NCBI RefSeq assembly: GCF_000422885.1
Contig: NZ_AUGX01000012.1
Location: 186,001-250,000, forward strand
Reading direction: 5' to 3'
DNA: 64,000 nt
Source of the DNA: Ottowia thiooxydans DSM 14619
Lineage (GTDB): Bacteria; Pseudomonadota; Gammaproteobacteria; Burkholderiales; Burkholderiaceae_C
Every line of letters begins with the position of its first letter. Position 1 is the stretch's first letter. This document shows, in pieces, positions 1,753 to 39,199 of the stretch. The notes below the pieces were generated by a model. It made no database searches. It saw only the letters and a list, made by a program, of their open reading frames with translations, and was not told the origin of the DNA. A program made the position numbers and the translations under genes.

Positions 1753-1786
1753 TGGTGGAGCTGGGGGGATTTGAACCCCCGTCCGC
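1753..1786 (+). repeat. att site: 34-bp copy of the ssrA 3' end (left junction)
   Basis: These 34 bases are identical to 39166-39199, the last 34 bases of the tmRNA gene including the T-arm and the CCA end. Only the 3' end of tmRNA is present and the bases after 1786 do not continue the gene, so this is an attachment-site copy and not a second tmRNA or tRNA. It is both the right end of the outer element and the left end of the inner one. Confidence 0.93.
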
Positions 1787-2904: not shown

Positions 2905-4479
2905 ATGACGAACTCAAAAAACAAGTCAACAGTGGACCCGGCAAGCCGCGACCCCTTCAATCAGCCGACATTCCTTGCCGCAAAAGCAAACAGTCGTGAA
3001 ATAGAAAAGCAGATACGCAAGAATTTGCAAATAGATCTCAGCCTTCATGATGAGCAAGCGGACGCTCAGGCCGCCGCTGGAAAAGCGCGCCTCGCGCAAG
3101 TAGAAGAAAAGATTCGTCAGCACGATCTCGTTCGCGACAAATCTTGCGATTCGCGCAGGCTTGATGAAACATCAATTCAGCTTCTGCGCGAGCTTTCAAA
3201 AGCACGCGCTGCAGAAATTGAACGTCGCCTCGGCATAGAAAAACAAGCCGAACTCGCATTCTCTGAGACCCTCGAAGACGCAATCGACGATCCAATGCGC
3301 TCGCAAACGCACACTGAAGTCATCTTCTGGATCTGCAAGTCTTGCTTTTGCAAAGACGCTCAGCGAGTTGTGAAAAAAGGCGGCTGGAACTGGGCATGCG
3401 AAAAGTGCGGCAATCAGCTCACAGATGACGAAGCCAAAATGATTTCGCCGCGGCTGAAGTTGAAAAAGGACCGGGCGACGCTTCAGCCGCCGCCAGGATC
3501 GCATCGCATGATCAAAGTGTTCGATTACGATCAGCTGCTAAAAATCGCGGAAAGCAAAGACGCGATCACCGGAGACAGCGGCGATCGCCGACGGATCGAA
3601 CTCACGCTCGCGCAGCTACTGCAGCTCGAAGAAACACGCCCGCTAGCGTTGCCGAGTCCGTCCTACGAAGCCGAACTCGAAGAACTCGCGCTGGCGTTTC
3701 CAGCTTTCGCGCGCGTGATCTCCGAAGTCGTAGTCCCATCGCTTGCGATCCTGGCCGCTGGCGGCACTGCCCGGCCGGCGCCGGTGTTGCTCGTCGGCCC
3801 TCCTGGCATCGGAAAGACCTTCTTCCTGACGTCGCTCGCGAGAGTGTTGGCTGTGCCGCTGATCAAGCAAGACATGAGCACCATGACCTCTGGCGCCAGC
3901 CTCTCCGGGCTCGGCATTCACTGGGCAAACAGCTCGCCAGGAACAGTGTTCAAAACACTCGCATTCGGCAAGCCAGGCCACCTGGCAGTGGCCAATCCGC
4001 TAATCCTTCTCGACGAGCTCGACAAGTGCTCGGGAGACCGCAGGTTCGACCCGCTCGGCCCTCTGCACGCGCTTTTAGAAGAAGAAAGCGCACGCGAGTT
4101 CGAAGACGAAAGCATCCCCGGCGTCGTGTTCAACACCAGTGAAATCAGGTGGGTGGCCACGGCAAACAGCACCAACGGCATTCCGTCGCCGATTCTTTCT
4201 CGCATGCACATCATCGAAATCGAAGAGCCAACGCGCGCGGAAAGAATCGCGCTGGCGGAACGGATCTTCGCTGGCGCCGTTCGAGAAATGCGGCTTCGGG
4301 AGTTCGTTGACGTGATGCCCGACGCCGTGTTGGAACGCGCTGCTGATTTGCCGCCGCGGGAGTTCAAGCGGCTGTCGCAGATGGCTGTTGGCCGTGCCCT
4401 GGCACGCGGTGACTTTCAACCACGGATCGAGGATTTTTCTGTTCAAGCGCAGGCCTCAAAACGAAAAATGGGGTTCTAA
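2905..4479 (+). CDS. AAA+ ATPase with N-terminal coiled coil and zinc ribbon
   Basis: 524 aa. Residues 1-130 are charged and probably coiled coil. Residues 144-168 hold a C4 zinc ribbon (CKSC and CEKC). The AAA+ core starts at about 255: Walker A GPPGIGKT at 298-305, Walker [10 protein letters not shown] at 366-374, sensor-1 ATANS at about 418-422 and an arginine-finger candidate in SRM near 433. The core resembles the Lon/MoxR-type unfoldase fold, but no protease domain follows, so it is more likely a remodelling ATPase. Starts 13 bases after a secreted-protein gene. A paralogue that has lost these motifs is encoded at 17179-17949. Substrate unknown. Confidence 0.85.
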
Positions 4480-4481
4480 AA

Positions 4482-4862
4482 ATGGACAAAGAACTGGAGC
4501 AGCTCAACGAACTGAAGCAGCGCTTCTTGGCCCAGATCCGGGCCAAGGTGGAGCATCCATTCCGGGTGATCAAGCGCCAGTTTGGCTACACCAAAGTGCA
4601 CTACCGGGGGTTGAAGAAGAACACGCTGCAACTCAAGACGTTGTTTGCGCCATCCAACCTGTGGATGGTTGCGCCACACGTTGATGGGGGCATGGGGATG
4701 AGTGCGCCGGAAACCCGTGAAAAGGCCGCAAATGCGGCTTCAGGGGCAGCGAAATGGGGCAGGAAGTGCCTGCATTTGCTCCGGATCAATGAAAACTTGA
4801 GTGTGGCAGTTGAACTGCGGGGCATACCACTCGCGCATTCGGATTGTTCAGACCATCCTTAA
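4482..4862 (+). pseudogene. IS5-family transposase C-terminal remnant
   Basis: Codons from about 4510 to 4670 match the end of IS5-type DDE transposases: [20 protein letters not shown], then [18 protein letters not shown] and SNLWMV. The E of the DDE triad lies in this VEHPFR motif; both Asp-containing blocks are missing. After about 4670 the frame runs into unrelated sequence, probably the IS 3' noncoding end. The remnant begins two bases after the AAA+ stop codon, so the IS probably landed there and was then deleted from its 5' side. Not functional. Confidence 0.75.
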
Positions 4863-4928
4863 AGGCGCCGGTGTCAACCGGCCTCTGGCTGTGCGATCTT
4901 TATTGAGATGTAAAATAATAACTAAATA

Positions 4929-5561
4929 ATGCAACATTCAAGAGCAAGCCTTGCAACTTATCCAACGCAGGAGGAACAGGTACTGTCCTTGGCCAGCAGT
5001 AGCCCCCTTCTTCGCGCCAAAGACGTGGCTGTCCGCTCGCTGCCGACCGTCATTCTCAGCCGTCTGGTCCGGGACGGCAGGTTGCAGCGAGTCGCTCGTG
5101 GCGTCTATGCCCTTCCGGATCAACCTTTGAGCGAAAACCGCTCTCTCGCGGAGGTTTCGCTTCGAGTTCCAAGAGGAGTCATCTGCCTGCTCTCGGCCCT
5201 GCGGGTACACGGGCTCGGAACACAGGCACCTCATCAGGTCTGGATAGCAATCCCTCAAAACTCGCCCACACCCCGCGTCCGTACGCCACCGTTGCGCGCT
5301 GTACGCATGTCGGGAGCAGCGTTGACCGAGGGGATCGAGCCCGTTCGGATCGACGGTTTGGAGGTGCCGGTTTTCAACGCGGCCAAGACCATCGCCGACT
5401 GCTTCAAATACCGAAACAAGATTGGCATCGATGTTGCTCTTGAGGCGCTGCGCGAAGGATGGACACAGCGCAGGGTGACCATGGACGAGCTTTTCCATTA
5501 CGCATGCATCGACCGCGTATCGAATGTGATGCGGCCCTACATGGAAAGCATTGCAGCATGA
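4929..5561 (+). CDS. AbiEi-type antitoxin/transcriptional regulator, orphan
   Basis: 210 aa with the AbiEi layout: an N-terminal winged helix (residues about 15-70, LRAKDVAVRSLPTVILSRLV, then GRLQRVARGVYALPD) and a C-terminal domain containing LEVPVFNAAKTIADCFKYRNKIG and ALREGW. In type IV AbiE systems this protein is the antitoxin and represses its own promoter; the partner AbiEii is a nucleotidyltransferase. Here AbiEii is absent: a 29-codon frame with an ATGA overlap (5558-5647) occupies its place and the cytosine methyltransferase follows. It may have been re-used as regulator of the defence locus. No Shine-Dalgarno precedes the ATG; an AT-rich promoter-like stretch lies at 4900-4925. Confidence 0.8.
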   Translation: MQHSRASLATYPTQEEQVLSLASSSPLLRAKDVAVRSLPTVILSRLVRDGRLQRVARGVYALPDQPLSENRSLAEVSLRVPRGVICLLSALRVHGLGTQAPHQVWIAIPQNSPTPRVRTPPLRAVRMSGAALTEGIEPVRIDGLEVPVFNAAKTIADCFKYRNKIGIDVALEALREGWTQRRVTMDELFHYACIDRVSNVMRPYMESIAA

Positions 5562-5647
5562 GTGCAGCGAACCACCGCACCACTACAGAAGCGTCGGCAA
5601 ACAAAAATTTCGGAACAGAGTCAAGTAACCAATGCCGATTCCAATAA
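5558..5647 (+). pseudogene. 29-codon frame coupled to abiEi, possible abiEii stub
   Basis: The ATG overlaps the abiEi-like stop codon (ATGA), the coupling expected for abiEii. The product (starting MSAANHRTTTE) ends after 29 codons inside the start of the methyltransferase gene. Too short to identify by sequence; the reading as a vestige of the toxin gene rests on position only. Confidence 0.25.
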
Positions 5648-7209
5648 TTGACCTCTTTGCTGGTCCTGGCGGGCTGGGAGAGGGTTTTTCCTCCCTTCGA
5701 AACCACAGTCACGAGCCAGTGTTCGAGATCGGTCTCTCCATCGAAAAGGACCCCGTGGCGCACAGAACCCTGATGCTACGGGCGGTATACCGGCGGCTGA
5801 GAGGTACCAAATACATCCAGCACTACTACGCCTACATCCGAAATGAGATGGATGAAGCCGCTTTCAAAAAGGTTCCCGCTGTTGCGGACGCCTTCGCTCA
5901 TGCAGCGAAGGAGGCTCAGTGTCTTGAGCTGGGCAAGGCCGATGAGGAAAGCATCGACGCCGACATCCGCGCAGCGCTGCAGAGCAGAGAAACGTGGGTA
6001 CTCATCGGTGGCCCACCCTGCCAGGCGTACTCGTTGGCGGGCAGGTCCCGCCGAGCGAACGACAAGAAGTTCCATGAGGACGAGAAGCACTTCCTTTACA
6101 GGGAATACCTGCGGATCATTCAAGTGCATCGACCGACTATCTTCGTCATGGAGAACGTCAAGGGGCTGCTGTCCTCTCAGCACTCAGGCAGTCCGATGTT
6201 CGAAAGGATCCTTGGCGACCTTTCGGCGCCTGTTCCTGGGCTCGAATACGAGATTCGTTCCTTCGTGCAGAAAGGGGAAGGCAAAACCCTCGTGCCGGGC
6301 GATTTCGTCGTTCAGGCCGAAAACCATGGCATTCCACAATGTCGACACCGCGTGATCCTTCTTGGAGTAAGAAAGGATGCAGGTGCGCCTCGCCATGATC
6401 TGCTGCAGGTGGTCTCGAAACCGGTGACCGTGAAGCAGGCCATCGATGATCTTCCCAAGATCCGCAGCAGGCTTTCACGAAACGACTCCCTGGAGGCATG
6501 GCGCGAAGCCGTGCTCGCAGGCCCCTCGTATGTCAAGGGCTGGGGAACGGAAAGCGAAGAGGCCATGACGGAGTTGATGCGCGTCTCGGCGCAGGCTGCA
6601 CTCAGCGTTGGGGTGGGGAAACCATTCGCACAGAAGCCTGGAAGGAAGCCGAAGCTCAAGGATCAGTCGGAACTACAACGGTGGGTGCATGACAAAAGTC
6701 TGAACGGCATCTGCCAGCATGAAGCGCGATCACACATGCCTTCCGATCTGGCCCGTTACCTGTTCGCAGCGTGCTTCGCCCAGTCCTACCGGTATTCGCC
6801 ACGGCTCGATGTTTTCCCTCCGAAACTTCTGCCGAACCACATCAACGTGACGAAGGACAAGGACACTGACGTCATTCCCTTCAAGGACAGATTTCGGGTG
6901 CAATGTGCAAGGGACCCGGCCACCACGATCGTCTCGCACATCGCCAAGGATGGTCACTACTACATCCACTACGATCCGACCCAGTGCCGGAGCCTCACGG
7001 TCAGGGAAGCAGCAAGGCTGCAGACTTTTCCGGACAACTACTTTTTCGCTGGAAACCGGACCGAACAGTACACCCAGGTCGGCAATGCAGTCCCCCCGCT
7101 ACTCGCAAACAAGCTGGCAAAGACCGTGCGTGGTCTGCTTGCTGGGTTGAATCGCGGAAACAGACGGAAAGCGAAGTCCGCTTCCGGAGCGAAACGTGGA
7201 TCCACGTGA
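5632..7209 (+). CDS. DNA (cytosine-5) methyltransferase
   Basis: 525 aa with the ordered C5-methyltransferase motifs: motif I DLFAGPGGLGEGF (residues about 7-19), motif IV GGPPCQ with catalytic Cys130, motif VI ENVKG (174-178), motif VIII QCRHR, and motif X GNAVPPLLAN near the end. It has an unusually long helical insert between motifs I and IV (about residues 45-115). It would transfer methyl from S-adenosylmethionine to cytosine in a specific site, marking self DNA. The convergent gene 55 bp downstream is vsr, the usual companion of C5 methyltransferases, and the MORC-like/Z1 operon follows. It is probably the modification arm of that locus. Target sequence cannot be read from the protein. 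Confidence 0.93.
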   Translation: MPIPIIDLFAGPGGLGEGFSSLRNHSHEPVFEIGLSIEKDPVAHRTLMLRAVYRRLRGTKYIQHYYAYIRNEMDEAAFKKVPAVADAFAHAAKEAQCLELGKADEESIDADIRAALQSRETWVLIGGPPCQAYSLAGRSRRANDKKFHEDEKHFLYREYLRIIQVHRPTIFVMENVKGLLSSQHSGSPMFERILGDLSAPVPGLEYEIRSFVQKGEGKTLVPGDFVVQAENHGIPQCRHRVILLGVRKDAGAPRHDLLQVVSKPVTVKQAIDDLPKIRSRLSRNDSLEAWREAVLAGPSYVKGWGTESEEAMTELMRVSAQAALSVGVGKPFAQKPGRKPKLKDQSELQRWVHDKSLNGICQHEARSHMPSDLARYLFAACFAQSYRYSPRLDVFPPKLLPNHINVTKDKDTDVIPFKDRFRVQCARDPATTIVSHIAKDGHYYIHYDPTQCRSLTVREAARLQTFPDNYFFAGNRTEQYTQVGNAVPPLLANKLAKTVRGLLAGLNRGNRRKAKSASGAKRGST

Positions 7210-7264
7210 CCAGATGATCCCAAGCGGGCGTCAGGCTCAGCTTGATTTGGTTCAGGCGAAATAG

Positions 7265-7699
7265 TCACTCGATGATCAGCGTGGCACCGTTCCCTCGCAA
7301 CCATTCTCCTGCCGCTTGGGCGGCCTCGTCTACCGAGCGCTTCAGTTCACATTCCCAGACGATGGCGACACGCCAACCCTGTTCCTTCAACAGAGCGACA
7401 TTGCGTGCGTCCCTGCTGGCGTTGCCTTCGAACTTCAGGGACCAGAAATCTTCATTCGATTTCGGGGACGTAGTGTACCGGCAGCCGTCATGACGATGCC
7501 AGAAGCAACCATGAACGAAAAGCACTGCTCGGTATTTCGGGAATACCAAGTCGGGGGATCCGGGCAGACCCCGCACGTGCAGTCTGTAGCGAAATCCGGC
7601 AGCAAACATCGCAGAGCGAAGCGAAAGTTCAGGACGCGTGTTCTTGCCGCGAATGCTCGCCATCATCCGACTGCGCTGTGGAGTTGTTGAAACATGCAT
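7265..7699 (-). CDS. vsr: Very short patch repair endonuclease Vsr
   Basis: About 144 aa from the ATG at 7699 (MHVSTTPQRSRMMASIRGKN); the frame is open to 7753, but the extra 18 residues do not resemble Vsr starts. Family motifs are present: SRMMASIRGKNTRPEL, then GSPDLVFP, VHGCFWHRHDGC and WRVAIVWECEL. Vsr nicks next to T:G mismatches created by deamination of 5-methylcytosine, so it protects against mutation at sites modified by the adjacent methyltransferase. It is convergent with that gene and divergent from the GHKL ATPase; the gap around 7700-7821 must hold promoters for both directions. Confidence 0.92.
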   Translation of the reverse strand: MHVSTTPQRSRMMASIRGKNTRPELSLRSAMFAAGFRYRLHVRGLPGSPDLVFPKYRAVLFVHGCFWHRHDGCRYTTSPKSNEDFWSLKFEGNASRDARNVALLKEQGWRVAIVWECELKRSVDEAAQAAGEWLRGNGATLIIE

Positions 7700-7821
7700 G
7701 CGCACATGATCGCAGACCAGTAGCCCTTGGTAGCACGACCAATTTCGATACACGAAGTGAGAGAACTTCGGGGCAGCGGTAACAATTGTGTTACGTTATG
7801 GCAAGAAGAGGAGGAGACTTT

Positions 7822-9279
7822 TTGAAGAAGCGGTACACACCTCCGCTGGCACCGACGCTGCTCGAGGCCATGCGGGCCATTGGCTACTCATTCGAGACCG
7901 CGCTGGCGGACATCGTCGACAACAGCATCGCGGCTGCGGCCACGAGAGTCGACGTGATGTTCTCTGCCGCGTCCGCCGCGTACGTCGCCATCAGTGACAA
8001 CGGCACTGGAATGGATGCCGAACAAGTGTTCGCTGCGATGAGACATGGCAGTCGCAATCCCCAGCAAGAACGTCACAGCGACGATTTGGGAAGGTTCGGC
8101 TTGGGTCTGAAGACAGCCAGTCTCTCCCAATGTCGTCGCATGACGGTTGTATCCCTGTCCCAGGGTCAGATCACGGGTGCCGCATGGGATCTCGACGACT
8201 GTGCAGACTGGATGCTCCTCGAACTGGATTCTCAGGACATCGACGCCGTGCCGCACGTCGTGGCCCTTCAGAAGCAGAAATCGGGAACCTTGGTAGTCTG
8301 GCGAAACTTGGACAGGGCCCTGGCAGGCGAGTCGAATTCAGAGAATGCGCTGATGGGCCTGATGGATCGAGCACGAGACCATCTCGCACTCGTGTTCCAT
8401 CGCTTCCTTCAAGGCACATCCCCCGCGCTCAAGATCACGATCAACGGCCTCCCCGTGCGGGCTCTTGATCCGTTTCTCATGAATGCGAAAGGCAGACAGA
8501 CCCTGCCGCCCGAGATGCTTCAAGTGGAACACGATGCGGTGCGTGTCGAAGCACACATCCTGCCCCACGTCTCGAAGTTGAGCACTCAAGAGATTGCACT
8601 CGCCGGAGGCGAGGAGGGTCTGAGGCGCAACCAGGGCTTCTACGTCTACAGAAATCGACGTCTCATCACCTGGGGGACTTGGTTCAGACTCGCGAAGCAA
8701 GAAGAGATGACCAAGCTTGCACGGGTGATGGTCGACATTCCAAATTCTCTTGACCATCTATGGTCGCTCGATGTCAAGAAGTCTGCGGCCCATCCTCCCG
8801 AAAAAGTGCGGCAGGGACTTTCTAGGATCGTCGAGCGCATTGCGGACCGCAGTCGGCGCGTCTACACCTTCAGGGGCAACCGCGGATGGGATACTGATCT
8901 CGTCCCTGCATGGAAAAGGCTTGAGTTGCGCGACAGGAACGTTCGGTACGAAGTCAATCGTCAACACGACCTTTTCGGTGCCCTTCGAAAGGAAGTGCCG
9001 GAGCATGCGGCCCCCTTGCTCGAACGTTTCGTACAAATGATCGAGGAATCGTTTCCCTTCGACTCCGTTTACGCCGACATGGCTTCAGACCGACGCACGG
9101 CCCCTCTGGATAAGGCCGACGAAGTCGAGGATCGCCTGCTGGAAATCGCCGGGCATCTGCTTGCCGTTCTGGCCAGTTCTCCAGAAGCCAGAAACGCCAT
9201 GCTTGAACGGCTTCACTTGCTGGAGCCGTTCAACAAACATCCCGAAATGACGACAAAGATCAAGGAAAAGCTCAGATGA
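7822..9279 (+). CDS. GHKL (MutL/MORC-like) ATPase of a defence operon
   Basis: 485 aa from a TTG at 7822, chosen because the purine-rich AGAGGAGGAGA lies just before it; an ATG at 7786 is in frame but has no such site. The N-terminal GHKL ATPase is clear: N box with Glu25 and Asp33-Asn34 (ETALADIVDN), G1 box SDNGTGM at 58-64 and G2 box GRFGLGLKTAS at 90-100. The rest matches the transducer/MORC-like part found in restriction-linked MutL homologues. These ATPases dimerise on ATP and are thought to clamp DNA. The next gene overlaps its stop by four bases (ATGA). Inferred role: ATP-driven sensing or clamping in the restriction response. Confidence 0.85.
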   Translation: MKKRYTPPLAPTLLEAMRAIGYSFETALADIVDNSIAAAATRVDVMFSAASAAYVAISDNGTGMDAEQVFAAMRHGSRNPQQERHSDDLGRFGLGLKTASLSQCRRMTVVSLSQGQITGAAWDLDDCADWMLLELDSQDIDAVPHVVALQKQKSGTLVVWRNLDRALAGESNSENALMGLMDRARDHLALVFHRFLQGTSPALKITINGLPVRALDPFLMNAKGRQTLPPEMLQVEHDAVRVEAHILPHVSKLSTQEIALAGGEEGLRRNQGFYVYRNRRLITWGTWFRLAKQEEMTKLARVMVDIPNSLDHLWSLDVKKSAAHPPEKVRQGLSRIVERIADRSRRVYTFRGNRGWDTDLVPAWKRLELRDRNVRYEVNRQHDLFGALRKEVPEHAAPLLERFVQMIEESFPFDSVYADMASDRRTAPLDKADEVEDRLLEIAGHLLAVLASSPEARNAMLERLHLLEPFNKHPEMTTKIKEKLR

Positions 9280-12032
9280 AACTTTCGCGCAACGCCCAGG
9301 TGCTGGCGGACTACGTTGTCAGGTCGTTTCAAGACGACGTCGTGCCGACGGAACCACAACTGAGGGAGCGAATGGCACAGCTCGCTCCGTTTCTGCAGAC
9401 CATTGGACAGGGCGCGACGATCGGCGAGCAGGACGACGTCCTCAAGGAATTGCTGGCACGGTTGCGCGTCAGCATGGACGTCGGAGCGGGACTGAAGGCG
9501 GAAGATCTGAAGCCATGGCTAGATTCCCGGCGCGCAACTATCGATCCTTTCTACTGGACCCGTTTCAGCAACCACCTCCAGAAAGAGTGGCCATCTCCGG
9601 TCCTCCGTAATTTCGACAAGGTTACCGACGCGATCCTCGATCTGTGTGGCAACCCCGCAGCACCGGAAGATCAGTGGAAGCGCCGCGGGCTGGTGATCGG
9701 AGACGTGCAGTCAGGCAAGACGGCGACCTACACCGCCCTCTGTTGCAAGGCAGCGGACGCCGGCTACCAAGTCATCGTCTTGCTCGCGGGTAGTCTGGAA
9801 AGCCTCAGGCGTCAGACACAGAAACGAATGGATGAAGGATTCGCGGGTCTGGACAGTTCGGAGTTCCTGCCGACCAAGGGCAAGGACGGCTGGAAGTCGC
9901 GCGCCGTGGGAGCCGGGCTGGACAACCAGAAGCGATTTGCCGCTGTTTTCACTTCAAGAACCCGTGATTTCAACAAGGATGTCCTCAACTCACGCCAGCT
10001 GACACTGAGCGCGGTAAAAGAGCCTGTTCTCTTCGTTGTGAAGAAACACAAGAGCATCATCGAGAACCTTGCGACATGGCTGCAGGCTTACAACGCCGAC
10101 ACCAGTGGCAGGATCAGGGAGAGCTTGCTGCTCATCGATGACGAGGCCGACAATGCTTCGGTCAACACCAACGATGAAGACAAGGATCCGACCGCAATCA
10201 ACCGGAGCATCCGGGGCCTTCTCAACATCTTCACACGCAGTACATACGTCGGTTTCACGGCAACTCCATTCGCCAACGTCTTCATCGATCCGGATACGTC
10301 GGATGATGACTTTCACAAGGAGGAGCTTTTTCCAAGGGATTTCATCTACGCCCTCGATGCCCCCACGAATTATGTTGGGGCGAGTCGCATCTTCGGCGAA
10401 GACGTCGATTCTGGACTCATCAAGAACCTCGAGGATGCAGAGGAAGTATTTCCGCTGAAGCACAAGAGCAGTCTGCCGTTCGACCGGTTGCCGGACAGCC
10501 TGCATACGGCGATTCTGCAGTTCCTCATCGCGAACGCGGTCCGGGACCTGCGCGGCGACATGACAGCGCACCGATCGATGCTCATCAATGTCAGCCGATT
10601 CACGGCCATCCAAGATGGCGTTCGAGACATGGTCGACGCGGTGACGGAGCACGCAAAGCAGCACATCCGCAACTTCAGCAGGCTCGATGACGATGCTTGG
10701 AAACAGAGTTCGGTGCTGAACGATCTGTGCGAACTCTTCGCCGCCGAGTACGCGGACTGCGGCTACACATGGGAGAAGGTGCGCACGACGCTGTTCGAGG
10801 CCACGGCCCCCATTGCCGTCAGGTCGGTCAACCAGAAGTCCGGCGCGGCCAGTCTTGACTATGCCAAGCATGAGGATACAGGCTTGCGCGTCATTGCAGT
10901 CGGTGGCAACAGTCTTTCTCGCGGCCTGACGCTCGAGGGCTTGTGCGTCAGTTACTTCCACAGGAACCCGCAAGCCTATGACACATTGCTTCAGATGGGC
11001 CGGTGGTTCGGTTATCGCAAGGGATACGACGACCTCTGCCGACTGTGGATCACTGCCGATGCGCAGCAGTGGTACTCGCATGTAGCCTCAGCTACCGAGG
11101 AACTGAGGGACGAGGTCCGCCGAATGTGCCGCCTCGATCTGACGCCGAAGGATTTCGGGCTGAAGGTTCGCTCGCATCCGGATACTCTGATCGTCACAGC
11201 ACGCAACAAGATGCGCAAATCGCAAACGGTGATCAAGCAGATCTCCTGGAGCGCCGAAGGTGCCGAGACCACCAAGCTCCGTGCAAGGTCGAATGGCGCG
11301 AACAGACGTACCACGCAGGCCTTGATCAGGGCCCTGGATGACCATGAAATTCCAGTCACGAAGTCCGAGTGGGGAAATCCGATCGCTCGGAACGTCCCCA
11401 AGGAAGTGATTGCCAAGTTCATTGACTCGTTCGAAGTTCATCCGCACAACTTCAAACTCTACGTGGCCGACGACGAGAAGGCCGACTTCGGACTGGGAAA
11501 GTTCATTGCCGAGACTGGCGAAGATTCGCTCCAGTTCTGGGACGTAGTCTTTCCGCAGGGAGAGCAGGAAACAAGGAATTTTCTGGGCAGCGGCATCGAG
11601 CTGAATCCAGTACGGCGTGTTGTCACCACGTCCGACAGTGACCAGACCGTGCTCATCTCCGGAGCAAAGGCCCGCGTTGGCTCACGAGGCGTAGAGCGTG
11701 AGGGAATCTCGAAGGACGTTGTGGATGAACTGGTCGCGGAAGCAAAGGCCAAGGGCAAAAACGTTGCCGATCACATGCTTCGATCGCGGCGTGAGCGACC
11801 CCTGCTTCTGATCTATGCTGTCGTTCCTCATCACGCTGGTGATGGAAAGGTCTGGCAAGGCCTAGCCGAAGACGACCTGTTTATGGCGTATGGCCTGAGC
11901 TTTCCTCAGTTTGATGACAAGACGCTGACGAAGACGGTCGCCTATCGCGTCAACACCACTTGGCTGCGCGATCACGCCATCGATGAAGACGACGACGAAG
12001 TCGAAGTCGATGGAGAAGACCTCGATGATTGA
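9276..12032 (+). CDS. Z1-domain superfamily II helicase-like protein
   Basis: 918 aa, at the usual length for Z1 proteins. Visible motifs: Walker A GDVQSGKT (142-149), Walker B LLIDDEAD (about 285-292), a GFTATPF motif III (about 325-331), and the Z1 signature QMGRWFGYR (about 573-581) preceded by GGNSLSRGLTLEG. The C-terminus is strongly acidic (DEDDDEVEVDGEDLDD). Z1 proteins occur with MutL-like ATPases, C5 methyltransferases and nucleases in predicted restriction systems and are expected to translocate or unwind DNA. It overlaps the ATPase by 4 bp and the PD-(D/E)XK gene by 8 bp, so the operon is tightly coupled. Confidence 0.9.
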   Translation: MKLSRNAQVLADYVVRSFQDDVVPTEPQLRERMAQLAPFLQTIGQGATIGEQDDVLKELLARLRVSMDVGAGLKAEDLKPWLDSRRATIDPFYWTRFSNHLQKEWPSPVLRNFDKVTDAILDLCGNPAAPEDQWKRRGLVIGDVQSGKTATYTALCCKAADAGYQVIVLLAGSLESLRRQTQKRMDEGFAGLDSSEFLPTKGKDGWKSRAVGAGLDNQKRFAAVFTSRTRDFNKDVLNSRQLTLSAVKEPVLFVVKKHKSIIENLATWLQAYNADTSGRIRESLLLIDDEADNASVNTNDEDKDPTAINRSIRGLLNIFTRSTYVGFTATPFANVFIDPDTSDDDFHKEELFPRDFIYALDAPTNYVGASRIFGEDVDSGLIKNLEDAEEVFPLKHKSSLPFDRLPDSLHTAILQFLIANAVRDLRGDMTAHRSMLINVSRFTAIQDGVRDMVDAVTEHAKQHIRNFSRLDDDAWKQSSVLNDLCELFAAEYADCGYTWEKVRTTLFEATAPIAVRSVNQKSGAASLDYAKHEDTGLRVIAVGGNSLSRGLTLEGLCVSYFHRNPQAYDTLLQMGRWFGYRKGYDDLCRLWITADAQQWYSHVASATEELRDEVRRMCRLDLTPKDFGLKVRSHPDTLIVTARNKMRKSQTVIKQISWSAEGAETTKLRARSNGANRRTTQALIRALDDHEIPVTKSEWGNPIARNVPKEVIAKFIDSFEVHPHNFKLYVADDEKADFGLGKFIAETGEDSLQFWDVVFPQGEQETRNFLGSGIELNPVRRVVTTSDSDQTVLISGAKARVGSRGVEREGISKDVVDELVAEAKAKGKNVADHMLRSRRERPLLLIYAVVPHHAGDGKVWQGLAEDDLFMAYGLSFPQFDDKTLTKTVAYRVNTTWLRDHAIDEDDDEVEVDGEDLDD

Positions 12033-12957
12033 GAGCCAATGGGCCGAATTGGCGGGCGCATTACCCCTGCCCGTCCATCGCCGAGTTTCCCCCCATCACC
12101 CTCTTGATCTGTTTGCCCAACTGGATTTTCAGGAAAGAGTTGGTCTACTCGCCATTTGCGAAGAGTCCCCAGGCACGGTGCCCACCTATGCTGCAGTGGA
12201 TGTCAGCGTGGGTCTGCGAGAGGACGGGAAATGGGCCACATCGATCTCCCTGAAGCAACCCATCCTGCGGCCAATGTTCGCAGCGATGTGCAATGAGATC
12301 GTGCAGGAGGGCATGAAGGCAAAAGCTGGAACGCAGGCTGGCGGCTTCGTTCTTCAACTTCTCGCACGATGGCAGAGACTCTTGGCACTCGGGCCGGACG
12401 GCTTGCTGTCAGCGGAAGCACAGTTGGGACTGCTGGGAGAACTGACGGTGCTGTCGAAAGCCATCGATCGCTTCGGACCCCAGAAGGCAGTGGCGGGTTG
12501 GCTCGGTCCTCTCGACGCACCGCAGGACTTTCTGCTTCCCAGCGGATTTTTAGAAGTCAAGGCGATCCGCAACGGCTCGACCGAGATACGAATCAGTTCG
12601 CTCGAGCAACTCGACATCTCCTCCGCTGCGCTGACGCTGGCGATCTGCGAGTTTGCTCCATGCTCTGCGGGAACGGGGGGACACAGCCTTGCATCGCTTG
12701 TCTCCGTGGTACGAGAACGCGTCGTTGATCAGGTCGAAGCCGCCGACAGCTTTGAAGGGTTGCTGCGTCAGGCAGGCTTCACTGATCGCACCGAGTACGC
12801 TCAGGAGGAGCTCCGTCTCCTTCGCACCCGCTGGCTTTCAGTGACCGCTGAATTTCCCCGGCTGCAGCGCAGCAGGCTACCTAAGGCAGTATCGGACGGC
12901 AAGTACCGATTGCTGCTCGACAGCCTCGAACCTTTCGAAACTTCCTGGGAACCTTAG
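12025..12957 (+). CDS. PD-(D/E)XK-motif protein (DUF4420-like), predicted nuclease
   Basis: 310 aa from the ATG at 12025, which overlaps the Z1 stop codon by 8 bases. The active-site candidate lies mid-protein: a helix with conserved Glu (QLGLLGELTVL), then DFLLPSGFLEVKAI at about 168-180, giving the D-(n)-E-x-K pattern. This matches PD-(D/E)XK motif proteins of the DUF4420 type found next to Z1 and AIPR genes. It is the best candidate for the DNA-cutting component, because the Z1, GHKL and AIPR neighbours lack a classical nuclease core. Two bases separate its stop codon from the AIPR start. Confidence 0.85.
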   Translation: MIESQWAELAGALPLPVHRRVSPHHPLDLFAQLDFQERVGLLAICEESPGTVPTYAAVDVSVGLREDGKWATSISLKQPILRPMFAAMCNEIVQEGMKAKAGTQAGGFVLQLLARWQRLLALGPDGLLSAEAQLGLLGELTVLSKAIDRFGPQKAVAGWLGPLDAPQDFLLPSGFLEVKAIRNGSTEIRISSLEQLDISSAALTLAICEFAPCSAGTGGHSLASLVSVVRERVVDQVEAADSFEGLLRQAGFTDRTEYAQEELRLLRTRWLSVTAEFPRLQRSRLPKAVSDGKYRLLLDSLEPFETSWEP

Positions 12958-12959
12958 CC

Positions 12960-15026
12960 ATGGATTCACTAGAGGACTTCCGCCGCGAGTTGCTGGCCCG
13001 CGCAACTGTACGTGCAAGCGCCGACAAAAATCTCGGATACGCGGCATTTGTCGAACTCTGCGGAGAGCTTCTGGAAGAAGCCGAGGAGTTCAGCGACTTC
13101 ACACCGTGCTTCTTCCGCCATTCGAAGTCCGGATCCAGAAAGCTGTCAGTGGATGGATACGCTTTCGATGAGGCAGATCAGTCAGCACGCATGATGGTCG
13201 CGGACTTCTCCGGAGAGGAAGTCCCTGGCAACCTCACTGGGGTTGAGGCTCGGAAGCTTTTTTCGGAGCTGCAGGCCTTCGTCGAGGAATCGCTTGCAGG
13301 TACCGTTGCCGAGATGTCGGAAGAGAGCTCTCCGGAACATGGGCTTGCACGAGATCTCCGTGCGCGGGCAGCAGAGACGTCGCGTTACAGGCTGTACCTT
13401 GCCAGCGACCGCCCACTCAGCACCACGATCAAGGACTGGCCGGCGGGAGTGATAGGAGGTCGCACCGTCGAATTTCACATCTGGGACCTCTCGCGCTTTC
13501 ACAGAGCTCACCTGTCCCGTTCAGGCAGAGACGAGCTCGTCATCGATTTCAGCAGCTTGCCCTTTGGCGGACTGCCATGCCTTCCTGCGAGCATGAGTTC
13601 CGATTCGTACGAAGGGTATCTATGCGTCATACCAGGCACCGCACTTGCCGACATCTATGACAAGCATGGGAGCCGGCTTCTGGAAGGTAACGTGCGAGCG
13701 TTCCTGAGCACCACAGGGAAGGTCAATAAGGGCATCCAGCAGACGCTGCAGCGCGAGCCTGAAATGTTCTTTGCTTACAACAATGGCATCGCAGCGACAG
13801 CGTCCAGCGTCTTGATCAGCGAAACAACACACGGTCAGCGCGTCGTCTCGGCTGCGGATTTTCAGATCGTCAACGGGGGGCAGACGACGGCATCGATGTC
13901 CTACGCCAGGCGTAAAGGTGATCTTGATCTATCCGACGTGCTGGTTCAGATGAAGCTGTCCGTTGTGGATGACGAACGCGCTGGCACTTTCATTCCGCTC
14001 ATTTCGCGTTTCTCGAATTCCCAGAACAAGGTATCGGACGCAGACTTCTTCGCCAATCACGAATTTCATCGACGGATTGAGAAGATCTCACGTCGACTGA
14101 GGGCTCCCGCAAAAAAGGCAACTCAAGTCGAAAGCTTTTGGTTCTATGAGCGGGCGCGTGGTCAGTATGCAGTTGAATTGGGACGGCTTTCCGTTGGAGA
14201 ACGGAGGCGCTTTGAGATCGAATCTCCACGCGAGCAGATCATCACAAAGACAGATCTGGCGAAATTTGAGAACTCCTGGCGTCAACTTCCCCATGAGGTC
14301 AGCCGCGGCGCGCAGAAGAACTTCATCCGCTTTGCCGAACACATCACGGCCGAGTGGGAACGAGATCCCGAACTCTTTCATGATGAGTATTTCCGACAGC
14401 TCGTCGTCAAGGCGCTGATGTTCCGAGCCCTCGAGAGGATCGTTCCGAAAGAGGATTGGTACGACGGTGGTTACCGCGCAAACATTGTCACCTTCTCGTT
14501 AGCCAAGTTCGCCCACATGGTCGAGAATCGCGCCGACGCCTCTAAGTTCAATTTCCAGAAGACATGGAAAGCCCAGGAAATTTCGACGGTACTTTTAGAA
14601 CAGCTCCGCTTGATCGCGAGGGCGGCGTATGGAGTGATTATTCGCCCGGAAGCTGGCATACAGAACGTGACGGAATGGTGCAAGAAGGAGCTTGCATGGC
14701 AAAGGATGAAGTCAACGCACGTGTCTTTCACCGCCGACTTCGAAGGCGAGCTGGTTGCCTCGGAGGAAGCGGTTTCGGCACGACGTTCGGCCAAGTCCGA
14801 GGCCAGAATCGATGCTGGCCTGGATGCACTACGGGAAGTGATGGCCTTCGGTACCGACAACTGGACGAAGCTGCGGCAGCATTCCGTCGCCGCAAAGGTC
14901 ACGACGCCTAGCGAAGATGGGCTTCTGCGTGTGGCATCGAATCCAAAATGGCTTCCAACGGATCGCCAAGCCAAGGAATTGATGAAGTTGCTGCTGCGAC
15001 TCAGGTCCGAAGGTACATGGCAATAG
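12960..15026 (+). CDS. AIPR-family (abortive phage infection-type) protein
   Basis: 688 aa. The AIPR core is recognised by FAYNNGIAATA followed by IVNGGQTTASMSYAR (about residues 303-318) and the downstream VQMKLSVV and FSNSQNKV segments. AIPR proteins were named for abortive-infection genes of lactococci; related sequences occur in modification-dependent and Z1-linked systems, and a nuclease or effector role has been proposed. As last gene of the coupled run 7822-15026 it most likely acts with the Z1 and PD-(D/E)XK proteins. No terminator is obvious; a weak GCCACAG/CTGTGGC hairpin lies at 15089-15109. Confidence 0.88.
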   Translation: MDSLEDFRRELLARATVRASADKNLGYAAFVELCGELLEEAEEFSDFTPCFFRHSKSGSRKLSVDGYAFDEADQSARMMVADFSGEEVPGNLTGVEARKLFSELQAFVEESLAGTVAEMSEESSPEHGLARDLRARAAETSRYRLYLASDRPLSTTIKDWPAGVIGGRTVEFHIWDLSRFHRAHLSRSGRDELVIDFSSLPFGGLPCLPASMSSDSYEGYLCVIPGTALADIYDKHGSRLLEGNVRAFLSTTGKVNKGIQQTLQREPEMFFAYNNGIAATASSVLISETTHGQRVVSAADFQIVNGGQTTASMSYARRKGDLDLSDVLVQMKLSVVDDERAGTFIPLISRFSNSQNKVSDADFFANHEFHRRIEKISRRLRAPAKKATQVESFWFYERARGQYAVELGRLSVGERRRFEIESPREQIITKTDLAKFENSWRQLPHEVSRGAQKNFIRFAEHITAEWERDPELFHDEYFRQLVVKALMFRALERIVPKEDWYDGGYRANIVTFSLAKFAHMVENRADASKFNFQKTWKAQEISTVLLEQLRLIARAAYGVIIRPEAGIQNVTEWCKKELAWQRMKSTHVSFTADFEGELVASEEAVSARRSAKSEARIDAGLDALREVMAFGTDNWTKLRQHSVAAKVTTPSEDGLLRVASNPKWLPTDRQAKELMKLLLRLRSEGTWQ

Positions 15027-26117: not shown

Positions 26118-26434
26118 TACAGCTGGACAAGCGTCGAGCACGAGCAGTTCGTCATGGACCTGGCTACGTCACTGCGCAATCATGGTGTCGACGCAATCCT
26201 GGACAAGTGGGGCCTCAAGCCCGGTCAAGACAAGTACGTCTTCATTGAGTCGATGGTTGTCGACACTGAAGTGCTCAAGGTCCTCGTCCTTTGCGACCGC
26301 AAGTACCAGGAGAAGGCGAACAACCGAGCCGGCGGCGTCGGCACCGAGTCGCAGATCATCTCCCAAGAGCTCTACGGCAAAGTCAAGCAGATCAAGTTCA
26401 TCCCCATCGTTTGCGGGTACGACGACGATGGCCA
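26118..26434 (+). pseudogene. SEFIR/TIR-domain gene fragment, cut at both ends
   Basis: The frame reads YSWTSVEHEQFVMDLATSLR, then NHGVDAILDKWGLKPGQDKY, VLKVLVLCDRKYQEKA, GGVGTESQIIS and VKQIKFIPIV. This is the body of a bacterial SEFIR/TIR domain. The expected start (a strand such as VFISYSW) is cut exactly before YSW, where the upstream codon is TAA (26115-26117), and the C-terminal effector part is missing. A perfect CGCCCCGGGGCG palindrome lies at 26101-26112 beside the 5' break. The 3' break runs straight into an IS21-type istB remnant. SEFIR/TIR domains often signal or degrade NAD in phage defence; this copy cannot work. Confidence 0.72.
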
Positions 26435-26539
26435 ACCGCCTTGCTCGGCCGGCTCACGCACCACTGCCACATCGTGGAGCGCCGCAACGCCCAAGTGCGG
26501 GGTGCCCGCGAATCAAGTCGCCGGCGTCGTACTGACTGA
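26435..26539 (+). pseudogene. istB remnant (IS21-family helper ATPase, C-terminus)
   Basis: A short frame reads TALLGRLTHHCHIVERRN, the typical C-terminal end of IS21-family IstB proteins. Everything upstream in this frame is shadow of the SEFIR fragment, so only about 20 codons survive. It marks the scar of a lost IS21-type element that truncated the SEFIR gene. Confidence 0.65.
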
Positions 26540-26547
26540 CTGCCCAG

Positions 26548-27291
26548 CTACGTGCCGTCGACGATGGTCACGCCGATGCTGCGGGCGAGAGCCAAAATTT
26601 CCTCGTGCGCAACAGGATCGCCCAACAGGCTGCGCGACGCACCTGTTTGCTGCAACACCCCCGCTTCTATGCGGTCTCCGAAAAGAACCACAGCGCGCGA
26701 CCTGTCGTCCTGCCGCGACATCCAGCTCAGTCCCTGGATGTCCTTGCGTTGAGCGTGGATGGCCTCGGCCCATTTGCGCGTGTCTGGGTATTGTTCCTTG
26801 TCGCTTTCAATTAGCTCGGTCTTGGCAACGCCAAGCTTGCGAAGCCACACCGTTCCCAGATCGGCAAGCAGCAGGTCGCTCGTAACCTGAATTGTCGAGT
26901 GCGATTGATGCTTGAGCTTGGCCTTGTCCACCGGTTTGAACCCCGGCTCAAAGGGCACGTCATGAAACACCGTTTCCATGGCCGCACCATCAAACGTAGT
27001 TGCAGCGTAGATCGTCGGGATCACCTTGCCGTCCACGTCCGAAATGGGACTGAACCGTGCGTTGCCGACGGCCATAGGGTTGAACTGGTCCGCTGCGAAT
27101 TTTTCCTGGTGAACCCGATGCATCACGTCAGCTTTGTGTAGCTTGCAAGTCGTGACGTCAAGATCAGCGTGCGGCTTTGGCATGGCGCGCTTGCGCGCGC
27201 TGGCCTGAGCAGGCGATGCCACGCCCGGTGGCGGTGGCGGTGGAGCCGCGGCCGTCGGCGGCGATGACGCGGGCTTCTTCGCCTTAGCCAT
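26548..27291 (-). CDS. RES-domain toxin
   Basis: 247 aa. After an Ala/Pro-rich lead (about residues 1-35, with PPPPPP) comes a RES domain: Arg in MHRVHQEKF, then NARFSPISD, IPTIYAATTFDGAAMETVFH and SRAVVLFGDRIEAG. RES toxins of RES/Xre systems break down NAD+ when freed from antitoxin. The upstream antitoxin gene overlaps its start by 8 bp, so expression is coupled and antitoxin is made first, the usual order here. The proline-rich extension is longer than in typical RES toxins. Confidence 0.87.
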   Translation of the reverse strand: MAKAKKPASSPPTAAAPPPPPPGVASPAQASARKRAMPKPHADLDVTTCKLHKADVMHRVHQEKFAADQFNPMAVGNARFSPISDVDGKVIPTIYAATTFDGAAMETVFHDVPFEPGFKPVDKAKLKHQSHSTIQVTSDLLLADLGTVWLRKLGVAKTELIESDKEQYPDTRKWAEAIHAQRKDIQGLSWMSRQDDRSRAVVLFGDRIEAGVLQQTGASRSLLGDPVAHEEILALARSIGVTIVDGT

Positions 27292-32728: not shown

Positions 32729-33358
32729 CTAAAGATCGGCCCTCCTCGCGATCAAATCAATCTCTACCGCTGGGTGCCCGAAGACTTCTGTCGCTACTTC
32801 GGACACTTGCCGAAGATGGGGCTTCGTCAATTCAAATGGATTCCAGCAACGTCCGCCGGCTTGCGCAAGAACTACCAGTCCATGCACGTGCACATGTGGC
32901 CTGTCGGTATGGACAACAAAGATGCCAACATGGTCCTCCGCACAACCCAAGGCATCAAGGACATCATGTGCAATACGTAGTGCGTTTTTGTGAATTGAGC
33001 CATTCTTCCTCGGTATTTCAAGGTGATCTGAAGGCTGTGCAAGCAGTTGGGTCGCTCGCGGATCAAAACTAATCAGAGTTTTGACATACCACTGTTTAGG
33101 AGTGGGCTGGACACGAAATACTGTACGCCTGAATTTGTCCATTTGCGTCGCAAGATCCTGCGCCGCGTCGCGCACCGTTGGCGCCCAGGGGGCAACAGAC
33201 TGGATTAATCCGCGAGTCTCAGGTGGGCCAGCCAAACGAGAACTCTTCACCCCGATGACTTCGGAATGTTTCGGACTTAAAAGGTACTCCAGATCGATTC
33301 GCAAATCTCCTGGCCGTTGCTCTCGTTGGCCAGTCCACCGGCCAAATTTCACGTACAC
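32729..33358 (-). CDS. Relaxase / mobilization nuclease with HUH motif
   Basis: 209 aa. The N-terminus (MYVKFGRWTG) resembles MOBP-type relaxase starts, and a metal-binding HUH motif stands at about residues 153-162 (HTDRPHVHVHG). The family nicks one strand at oriT to start conjugative transfer. It overlaps the mobC-like gene by 10 bp. No primase or helicase extension is present, so it is a minimal relaxase or has lost its C-terminus; the decayed helicase fragment beyond 32647 makes truncation possible. Confidence 0.75.
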   Translation of the reverse strand: MYVKFGRWTGQREQRPGDLRIDLEYLLSPKHSEVIGVKSSRLAGPPETRGLIQSVAPWAPTVRDAAQDLATQMDKFRRTVFRVQPTPKQWYVKTLISFDPRATQLLAQPSDHLEIPRKNGSIHKNALRIAHDVLDALGCAEDHVGIFVVHTDRPHVHVHGLVVLAQAGGRCWNPFELTKPHLRQVSEVATEVFGHPAVEIDLIARRADL

Positions 33359-36218: not shown

Positions 36219-36427
36219 GCGCCGACAGCAATTACCGGTGGGTTCGCCTTGGCAAGCACTGCGAAGACACCGGGGACACGCCTGATGCTGTTCATGCCCG
36301 CCGGCGAAAGAGGGTCTGGATTGACGGCGTGCACTGCCAGATTGGCCCAGACGGAAATCTTTATGTAAATCCTCAGGAGTACAACCAATGGATCGAAAAC
36401 CAGAGTTTCAAATGCCGCGCGGCGTGA
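36215..36427 (+). CDS. Excisionase-like DNA-binding protein
   Basis: 70 aa from a GTG at 36215. The sequence YRWVRLGKHCEDTGDTPDAV, then KRVWIDGVHCQIGPDGNLYV and EYNQWIE fits the small winged-helix excisionases encoded just before tyrosine integrases. Such proteins bind attP arms and push recombination towards excision. It overlaps int by 40 bp, the normal compact arrangement. Confidence 0.75.
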   Translation: MSADSNYRWVRLGKHCEDTGDTPDAVHARRRKRVWIDGVHCQIGPDGNLYVNPQEYNQWIENQSFKCRAA

Positions 36428-37581
36428 GCGTACGGGCATTCAAGACGGAAGAGCGAATTCAAGTTGCTTTTTCGTACCGCGGCGTCGAGTGCCGCGAACT
36501 GCTTCCCCCGCAGAAGATCACCAAAACGGCCGTGCAGCTCGCTGGCGGCCTGCGAATGGAGATCCAGCGGAAGGTCGAAAACGGGGACTTCGTTTTCAGA
36601 GACTACTTCCCGAACAGCTCCAAGCTCGCCAAGTTTGAAAGTGGCTCGGGCAAGAAGGTGGTGAACCTCGGGAAGCTGATGGACGCCCAGGCGGCGATCT
36701 ACGAGCGGCAGGAGGCCAACAAAAAGATGTCCGCCTCTACTGTCGCCGCGTATGTGAAGGCCCTCAAAAGCGAGAAGATGAAGCAGTGGCGTGATCGCGA
36801 CGTGAGTGATGTGGCGCCAAGCGAGATTCGGGCGTGGATCGCGGCATTCAATGTCACAGCGAAAACGGCCAAAAACTTCATCACTCCGATGCGCTCGATC
36901 ATGCGAGATGCGTTGAATGATGACCGAATCACGCTCGACCCCTTCAGTCGTATTGCTCTCCCACAGCTGCTCAAGCAGACTGCTCGCGACAGCGAGTACA
37001 AGATCGATCCATTCAGTAGGGAGGAGCGTGTAAAGCTGATCGAAGCCTGTCGGCCCGATGAGCGACCGCTGGTGGCGTTCTGGTTCGAAACTGGGTTGCG
37101 ACCCAGCGAGCTGCATGCGCTGAGGTGGTCGCGTATCGACCTGCCTGGCAAGCGGCTGCTGGTCGACATCGTGCAAGTCGAGAAAAAGGAGCAGGAGTTC
37201 ACAAAAACAGCGGCAGGAACACGATGGGTAGATCTGAGCCCTGAGGCCATCGCAGCGCTTGAGGCGCAAAAACCGATTACCCTTCTGGCAAACGATCACG
37301 TGTGGCATAACCCGCGCAAGGGACAGTTTTGGGAAACGGCGGATCAGATGCGAAAAACGCTCTGGGTCCCGCTGTGTCCTCGCGCCGGGATCGAATACCG
37401 CAACCCCTATCAGGTGCGGCACACGTACGCATCAAGCCTCCTGACAGCCGGGGAGAATCCCTGGTACGTCGGCGAGCAGCTTGGCCATGCAGATGTGTCG
37501 CTCGTCTTCTCGACGTACGGGAAGTTCATCCACGAGGACTACCAGAAGCCGACCAGGCAGCCGAACCTGAAAGTCGTCTGA
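36388..37581 (+). CDS. Tyrosine integrase of the ssrA element
   Basis: 397 aa. The N-terminus (about 1-80) is an arm-binding domain of the DUF3596 type (VAFSYRGVECRELLPP); the core-binding domain is at about 105-200. Catalytic residues visible: Arg238 (ETGLRPSELHALRW), Arg344 with the YQVRHT form of the HxxR box, His367 (QLGHADVS) and nucleophile Tyr377 (STYGKFI). It should recombine the 34-bp core in ssrA using the GTGCGAAT arm sites at both ends. Its homologue at 1145-1651 lacks the N-terminal half. Its terminator is interrupted by an IS. Confidence 0.93.
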   Translation: MDRKPEFQMPRGVSVRAFKTEERIQVAFSYRGVECRELLPPQKITKTAVQLAGGLRMEIQRKVENGDFVFRDYFPNSSKLAKFESGSGKKVVNLGKLMDAQAAIYERQEANKKMSASTVAAYVKALKSEKMKQWRDRDVSDVAPSEIRAWIAAFNVTAKTAKNFITPMRSIMRDALNDDRITLDPFSRIALPQLLKQTARDSEYKIDPFSREERVKLIEACRPDERPLVAFWFETGLRPSELHALRWSRIDLPGKRLLVDIVQVEKKEQEFTKTAAGTRWVDLSPEAIAALEAQKPITLLANDHVWHNPRKGQFWETADQMRKTLWVPLCPRAGIEYRNPYQVRHTYASSLLTAGENPWYVGEQLGHADVSLVFSTYGKFIHEDYQKPTRQPNLKVV

Positions 37582-39165: not shown

Positions 39166-39199
39166 TGGTGGAGCTGGGGGGATTTGAACCCCCGTCCGC
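39166..39199 (-). repeat. att site within the ssrA 3' end (right junction)
   Basis: 34 bp identical to 1753-1786. It forms the 3' end of the intact ssrA gene, so integration leaves tmRNA functional. Confidence 0.93.

Follow-up and report, generated by a model that had tools for sequence, protein, structure and literature searches.

A 64,000-nucleotide stretch of the Ottowia thiooxydans DSM 14619 genome (contig NZ_AUGX01000012.1, positions 186,001 to 250,000; hereafter the window, numbered from its first base) contains, at 5632–15026, six neighbouring genes encoding a C5-cytosine methyltransferase (Dcm), a Vsr mismatch endonuclease, a GHKL ATPase of the MutL/MORC type, a superfamily II ATPase with a Z1 domain, a DUF4420 protein with PD-(D/E)XK residues and an AIPR protein. 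Our reading of this locus, held with slightly more confidence than doubt, is that it belongs to the MZA/paraMORC class as a Dcm-linked form without MzaA, one that would perform ATP-driven, methylation-discriminating restriction, with the DUF4420 protein as the nuclease. What we establish directly is the gene content, the intact motifs, the constant order and co-evolution of the last four genes (the core), the linkage of Dcm to that core in every locus with sufficient context, and a looser pairing of both Dcm and Vsr with the core.

An earlier account made from the sequence alone (the sequence-only reading) had identified the six genes and described them as intact. Both statements are borne out, given that all six match named Pfam families and their open reading frames (ORFs) are uninterrupted over the coordinates in Table 1, as it had placed them. 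A PADLOC search, which it had suggested, names the last four proteins MzaB (GHKL, 1.1e-96), MzaC (Z1, 1.4e-135), MzaD (DUF4420, 3e-20) and MzaE (AIPR, 2.9e-79). The same four names are the top NCBIfam matches of the core proteins, at scores that reach 26–44% of the equivalog cut-offs.

A core of four genes in constant order

Z1 relatives occur in 26 of 299 same-family genomes, the window genome included, and neighbourhoods were taken from 20 of the 25 others, the lower-scoring G196, G002, G122, G014 and G093 being omitted. A further 80 neighbourhoods come from the genome_contigs collection (80 kept of 581 relatives). A phylum-wide search for MzaE gave matches in 47 of 398 genomes; 16 of the 46 other genomes with a match were used for neighbourhoods, four of which gave no Z1 protein above 700 bits, and 12 more supplied generic AIPR proteins. 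The 113 loci analysed here, window included, are those with a Z1 protein scoring above 700 bits; they were selected mainly by Z1 similarity, and frequencies among them apply within this lineage rather than to all Z1 proteins. The Z1 protein of L034, from a same-family genome, is identical to that of the Brachymonas locus L111.

The sequence-only reading had staked its case on the four core genes being conserved together in other genomes, and this is what we find: all 107 loci that have all four carry them in the single order GHKL, Z1, DUF4420, AIPR and on one strand. The six incomplete loci are L050 and L051 (no AIPR), L056 (neither DUF4420 nor AIPR), L059 and L093 (no DUF4420 match) and L115 (no GHKL match). 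Co-variation was assessed on the 82 loci with all six genes, reduced to 73 by removal of near copies. In this set the pairwise distances of the core proteins agree well with one another (Spearman 0.65–0.75), and in 57–65 of the 73 the locus closest by one core gene also ranks in the top three by another.

In L049, an MzaA-type locus, the Z1 gene is broken into two pieces separated by about 2.5 kb (L049:7457-12844). In L129, from Azospirillum brasilense, a second Z1 system adjoins the first (L129:15753-20509); its Z1 protein has an N-terminal HTH domain, extends to the end of the locus and lies next to a 709-residue Dcm.

Linkage and probable exchange of Dcm and Vsr

A Dcm gene is found no more than 9 kb from Z1 in 108 of the 113 loci (the Dcm proteins of L093 and L110, missed by the first profile, were added through their Pfam match). 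L047 and L048, once taken as exceptions lacking Dcm, are withdrawn as such: wider stretches contain both Dcm and Vsr, about 5.6–9.9 kb beyond AIPR, bringing the loci with Dcm near the core to 110 of 113. The remaining three (L056, L085 and L138) are cut by contig ends, and each of their genomes has one or two C5-methyltransferases on other contigs; in the L138 genome the off-locus enzyme adjoins Vsr, near a contig end. Directly after AIPR in L047 is a Mrr_cat-domain protein (L047:14447-15967; 2.6e-4, tested in L047), with an equivalent ORF in L048 at 3683–5203.

Relative to the core, Dcm is upstream on the same strand in 43 loci, downstream on the same strand in 26, downstream on the opposite strand in 26 and upstream on the opposite strand in 8. 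That it occupies four placements suggests a functional link that has been kept, rather than a frozen operon. Across the 80 genome_contigs loci, the density of Dcm ORFs is 0.190 per kb up to 3 kb from the core and 0.0107 per kb beyond that distance (82 versus 6 ORFs), making them about 18 times denser near the core; the corresponding values for Vsr are 0.139 and 0.0018 (60 versus 1). The two search profiles behind these counts were built from Dcm and Vsr proteins of the same loci, which may favour the near ORFs. Vsr is near the core in 87 of the 113 loci, always accompanied by Dcm, and is absent from 21 of the 108 Dcm loci, on which grounds we disfavour Vsr as the core effector. In L063, L084, L088 and L130, the Dcm beside the core consists of two adjacent ORFs; naturally split C5 methyltransferases occur.

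In the 73 non-redundant loci, Dcm distances correlate with Vsr distances at Spearman 0.57 and with core distances at 0.19–0.30, the latter being higher than in any of 500 shuffles; Vsr and core distances correlate at 0.23–0.31. Nearest-neighbour agreement follows in 35–37 of 73 loci for Dcm versus Vsr, 24–29 for Dcm versus core and 11–19 for Vsr versus core. Chance would give about 3, and thus Dcm and the core share some history. Within the major Dcm subfamily (54 loci), however, the Dcm–Vsr correlation drops to 0.20, which counts against a strict cassette and shows that the pairing is partly carried by the subfamily split.

Given that the core co-evolves closely while Dcm and Vsr track it loosely, we think it probable that a Dcm–Vsr cassette has been exchanged between cores. 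The window is a clear case. Its Dcm shares 71–72% identity with the counterparts in L120, L036, L037 and L131, which form one close lineage, and 68% with that of L049; its Vsr is nearest in these five loci (64–70%). L049 belongs to the branch that bears MzaA. The window GHKL and AIPR proteins, on the other hand, are nearest in L052, L053, L032 and L055, Z1 in L052, L053, L054, L032 and L055, and DUF4420 in L057, L054, L053 and L052. Much of the stretch from motif VIII to motif IX is common to Dcm proteins of the major subfamily, so these enzymes may have one target, which would also allow exchange.

MzaA is confined to one branch

None of the window ORFs matches the sigma factor MzaA, using a profile that detects it in 15 of the 113 loci at our threshold of at least 150 bits. 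In the Z1 tree a single branch (support 92) separates these 15 from the rest, so that one change suffices. Dcm is linked to 14 of them; in the remaining one, L138, a contig end truncates the locus. MzaA proper looks to have been added on one side of this branch, and Dcm is present on both; on an unrooted Z1 tree, this order of events is inferred. A search rule demanding MzaA would miss most of the loci considered here (98 of 113).

In L040 and L047 the best NCBIfam match of the sigma factor gene is NF041931, under its cut-off, and the L047 protein has ankyrin repeats. MzaB–MzaE of the MzaA-bearing L040 also score below their NCBIfam cut-offs, at 76–92%. Weaker matches to the MzaA profile (40–105 bits), which we did not count, occur in L084, L123, L141 and L142. 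That of L123 is an ankyrin protein, and the other three contain sigma-70 region 4 only, so that looser sigma-like partners are not confined to the MzaA branch. L141 is the next branch outside the MzaA branch, and L142 is a locus without a Z1 protein in the sequence covered. In both, a protein of about 900 residues with sigma-70 region 4 only adjoins AIPR on the opposite strand (L141:12268-14985 and L142:246-2984); these are perhaps diverged MzaA-like partners.

Functional residues and predicted structures

The sequence-only reading also depended on key GHKL, Walker and PD-(D/E)XK residues, and these are present. The window Dcm has the GPPCQ, ENV, QxRxR and GN motifs, whose residues are kept in 106–107 of 107 aligned Dcm proteins, and Vsr residues E42, D68 and H86 are found in 85 of 85. 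In the GHKL protein, N-box Asp42/Asn46 and DxGxG are kept in all 107 ungapped sequences, and the lid glycines and K332 in all 108. The Z1 protein has the Walker A motif GDVQSGKT, DDEAD, TATPF and DTLLQMGRWFG (569–579), and the Walker A, DDEAD, TATPF and QxxRWxG residues are kept in 112–113 of 113. A search of solved-structure sequences with the GHKL protein finds MutL (3.6e-5) and MORC2 (2.5e-3); the same search with Z1, DUF4420 and AIPR gave no matches.

DUF4420 residues E153, D182 and E191-x-K193 are E/D/E/K in 78 of 78 sequences. In its AlphaFold2 model (pLDDT 94) a helix at 144–164 and strands at 183–185 and 188–196 coincide with the motif residues, in the helix and strand order expected of PD-(D/E)XK enzymes. 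The AIPR model likewise has an N-terminal helix and strand order compatible with the PD-(D/E)XK fold, and Asp65 of AIPR_N is present in the window and kept in 70 of 79 proteins of the lineage. At the QxK positions of a joint alignment, 12 generic AIPR proteins have Gln in 12 and Lys in 10 (a simple pattern search finds QxK in 9 of the 12), whereas the 79 lineage proteins have Ile or Val in 69, Asp in 58 and Lys in only 2. Alignment A5 leaves out the AIPR of L073, one of the 79 found. This loss of the QxK lysine leads us to disfavour AIPR as the main nuclease; on our reading, DUF4420 would cut and AIPR would not.

Relation to known systems

The window locus belongs to a kind already described, of which a Dcm-linked form has been known since 2022 (PMC9523054). 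The part of that paper on its "putative defence system type II" describes a Dcm-containing system in which a Z1 protein of about 925 residues (918 here) occurs with a PD-(D/E)XK protein, a cytosine methyltransferase and AIPR. That system is associated with a MORC protein and a regulator, resembles mzaBCDE only distantly and usually has no mzaA. The window has Z1, PD-(D/E)XK, cytosine methyltransferase and AIPR proteins with a MORC-type neighbour. The paper prints DUF4220 where the Pfam family here is DUF4420, the likeness being drawn from its description only, and its section 11 ties DNA repair endonucleases to type I, with Vsr unnamed for type II. Passages of the same paper, citing Gao 2020, call mzaABCDE (MZA) validated. 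With MZA (NCBIfam NF041931–NF041935) the window shares the B–C–D–E order, the GHKL, Z1, PD-(D/E)XK and AIPR domains and matches to all four models. It differs in lacking MzaA, in scoring under every MzaB–MzaE cut-off (Table 1) and in occupying a separate branch of the Z1 tree; the absent MzaA and the sub-cut-off scores lead us to reject canonical MZA membership.

The sequence-only reading had placed the locus among the MutL/MORC-type, restriction-linked operons, and this agrees with the MORC/paraMORC operons with methylases, Vsr and a helicase motif predicted in the relevant passages of Iyer et al. 2008 (PMC2292703). The combination of a GHKL protein, a superfamily II helicase, an E-D-ExK nuclease, Dcm and Vsr is common to both, AIPR appears in a figure legend there, and the third-type helicase motif DThhQXuRhFG corresponds to DTLLQMGRWFG of the window Z1 protein, which has an E-D-ExK partner. 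The likeness of the window GHKL protein to MORC/paraMORC is at the level of the class, with MORC proper and paraMORC1–5 not distinguished. The kind is not an unnamed one: it has MZA relatives, and the Dcm-linked form is in print. Our search, made largely outside subscription journals, turned up no paper that tests a mechanism for this class, and the passages of PMC9523054 and PMC2292703 that describe these systems do not spell out an exchangeable Dcm–Vsr pairing or an MzaA confined to one branch.

Mechanistic precedents come from two other systems. In CglI/NgoAVII, as described in part of PMC4267653, an ATPase containing Z1 acts together with a nuclease and a C5 methyltransferase; cleavage requires the R-protein and ATP hydrolysis, and methylated sites are left uncut. 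The Z1-containing ATPase, C5 methyltransferase and nuclease are common to that system and ours, but its nuclease is a PLD-B3 R-protein, in place of which we find DUF4420, GHKL and AIPR; none of the six genes matches a PLD or B3 family in Pfam. For VcSduA, a passage in PMC12137116 reports that the GHKL domain and the PD-(D/E)xK domain are both required for phage defence.

Proposed mechanism and its alternatives

It is because of the CglI/NgoAVII and VcSduA precedents that we favour methylation-discriminating, ATP-driven restriction. We envisage two modules, modification (Dcm and Vsr) and response (the four-gene run). Dcm would methylate cytosine at its target in host DNA, and Vsr would repair T:G mismatches arising from deamination of 5-methylcytosine. 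Within the response module, the GHKL protein would be an ATP-gated clamp, the Z1 protein a DNA-dependent ATPase or translocase, DUF4420 a PD-(D/E)XK nuclease, and AIPR, having lost the usual lysine of its N-domain, a non-nuclease adaptor or sensor. Incoming DNA without the Dcm mark would license the complex, which ATP hydrolysis would move along the DNA and from which DUF4420 would cleave. We infer the methylation discrimination, the translocation, the cleavage and the GHKL and AIPR roles.

Several points weigh against this proposal. Methylation, cleavage and defence are all deduced from the genes, and selecting loci mainly by Z1 similarity inflates the apparent conservation. No sequence-reading domain was recognised in the four core proteins with Pfam, PADLOC or NCBIfam profiles. 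In all 107 GHKL proteins an Asp occupies the putative position of the catalytic Glu, a position that we take to be that of MutL and MORC, making fast hydrolysis uncertain. With the DUF4420 and AIPR models, Foldseek searches of the PDB returned nothing at E <= 0.001; AIPR had weak hits to Can2, McrC and ParB-N, to which, at E 0.27 or worse, we give no weight. The low Dcm–core correlation, though higher than in shuffles, is unlike that of a pair obliged to share one target, and in L047 and L048 Dcm lies about 8 kb beyond AIPR with other genes intervening.

Some of these observations would sit comfortably with abortive infection, in which the core senses a signal of infection (a replication intermediate, modified DNA or anti-restriction), and AIPR and DUF4420 stop or kill the cell. 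Dcm–Vsr would then be either a solitary methylation cassette that happens to lie next door or a unit that maintains itself in an addiction-like way. The name AIPR derives from abortive infection phage resistance, the phylogeny of Dcm and Vsr is loosely tied to the core, and the intervening genes of L047 and L048 separate the two. Nevertheless we consider this explanation unlikely. The linkage of Dcm in all 110 loci with sufficient context, together with its density near the core, is too steady for an unrelated cassette, and the AIPR_N domain lacks the QxK of generic AIPR proteins. A different role for the methyltransferase is that of a guide: a core without specificity of its own would be recruited by the adjacent Dcm, which supplies recognition for both marking and attack, as has been proposed for the methyltransferase of BREX-like systems. 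This would account for exchange of the Dcm–Vsr cassette, for the weak Dcm–core correlation and for the presence of Dcm proteins 68–72% identical beside cores of different clades, the MzaA-type L049 among them, with the nearest Vsr in the same loci. Against it, the shared region between motifs VIII and IX possibly means a single target, which would equally permit exchange, and contact between Dcm and the core is hypothetical; we regard the guide role as rather improbable.

Genomic islands accumulate defence genes, and a chance gathering of ordinary defence genes with no joint function might be suspected here. We reject it for the four-gene core because the order is the same in 107 of 107 complete loci, because the core proteins co-vary, and because of the near and far densities; for the locus we give it hardly any credence.

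If the modular reading is true, MZA-type immunity has in the methyltransferase a central component that the five named mza genes omit: it is linked to every locus with sufficient context, those bearing MzaA included. A bolder proposal, which is tentative and which we would sooner bet against than for, is that MZA arose as a derived branch within an older system that crosses phyla and is coupled to methylation, with a fixed GHKL–Z1–DUF4420–AIPR engine, exchangeable Dcm–Vsr cassettes that set the rule of self and non-self, MzaA added in one branch, and an AIPR N-domain that is a converted nuclease sensing methylation state. The locus offers a direct test of whether a GHKL/Z1 machine reads DNA methylation to tell self from non-self, a question that connects these operons to eukaryotic MORC proteins.

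Gene layout and the carrying element

Table 1. Features of the locus and of its carrying element, in window coordinates, with profile E-values or bit scores.
Feature	Position	Strand	Support
Left attachment repeat (copy of tmRNA 3' end)	1754..1784		exact 31-mer; 42-nt repeat at 93%
AbiEi-type regulator	4929..5561	+	Pfam AbiEi_4 4.8e-10; PADLOC AbiEi 3e-83
Dcm C5-cytosine methyltransferase, 525 aa	5632..7209	+	PF00145 4.6e-44; TIGR00675 139.5 bits (cut-off 100.65)
Vsr mismatch endonuclease	7265..7753	-	PF03852 9.2e-29; TIGR00632 141 bits (cut-off 98)
MzaB-like GHKL (MutL/MORC-type) ATPase	7786..9279	+	HATPase_c_3 7.4e-32; MzaB 375 bits (cut-off 850)
MzaC-like Z1-domain ATPase of superfamily II, 918 aa	9276..12032	+	Z1 5.3e-78; MzaC 530 bits (cut-off 1500)
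MzaD-like DUF4420 PD-(D/E)XK protein, predicted nuclease	11983..12957	+	DUF4420 6.6e-57; MzaD 111 bits (cut-off 420)
MzaE-like AIPR protein, 688 aa	12960..15026	+	AIPR 1.3e-94, AIPR_N 7.6e-38; MzaE 343 bits (cut-off 1050)
Tyrosine integrase of carrying element	36388..37581	+	Phage_integrase 3.3e-13, Arm-DNA-bind_2 2.7e-16
Right attachment repeat, within 3' end of tmRNA gene	39167..39197		exact 31-mer

The close spacing noted in the sequence-only reading is confirmed: GHKL and Z1 overlap by 4 bases, Z1 and DUF4420 by up to 50, and a gap of 2 bases separates DUF4420 from AIPR. Vsr lies between Dcm and the four-gene run but is encoded on the other strand, convergent with Dcm and divergent from the run. 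The locus is therefore not a single operon, and is probably transcribed in at least three units: AbiEi/Dcm, Vsr and the core. A promoter scan gave 1 match, against 2.9 in shuffles. Some starts probably lie inside the ORFs of Table 1. The GHKL protein would begin at TTG 7822 rather than 7786, a shorter form suggested by the probable Shine-Dalgarno sequence AGGAGGAG that precedes it; DUF4420 would begin at a later in-frame ATG, either 12010 or 12025, and for Vsr the start would be the internal ATG at 7699.

That reading had also seen no classical restriction enzyme here, and profile scans agree, with no restriction enzyme family above its cut-off beside Dcm except Vsr. The ATPase part of the GHKL protein matches a BbrUII/HgiDII restriction enzyme model weakly (32.5 bits against a cut-off of 550), and the Z1 protein has a Pfam ResIII match slightly below cut-off. 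The AbiEi-type gene whose linkage had been pointed out is present 70 bases 5' of Dcm, with no AbiEii gene between the two; it is an occasional partner, found in 5 of the 116 other loci searched.

The host genome (7.05 Mb in 78 contigs) contains one match to the window Z1 protein, one to Vsr and three to C5-methyltransferases. Its tmRNA gene lies at window 39166–39541. The proposed targeting of ssrA is upheld by the 31-base tmRNA end, whose only two exact copies in the genome, at window 1754 and 39167, delimit a 37.4 kb element. The mobilizable character that had been described is backed by the integrase, the attachment repeats and one weak match (29 bits) to a MobA/VirD2 relaxase domain, in a short ORF at 32729–33358; this match is the sole sign of mobilisation among the ten ORFs scanned. 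Directly left of the left repeat, at 1145–1651, is the C-terminal portion of another tyrosine integrase, which an earlier element inserted at this tmRNA site may have left behind. DDE transposases lie at 28395–29774 and 37615–38937, the second being of IS4 type and situated between the integrase and the tmRNA end. A protein with a SEFIR/TIR-like domain (26154–26885; SEFIR 2.9e-6) is possibly a further immune or signalling gene of the element.

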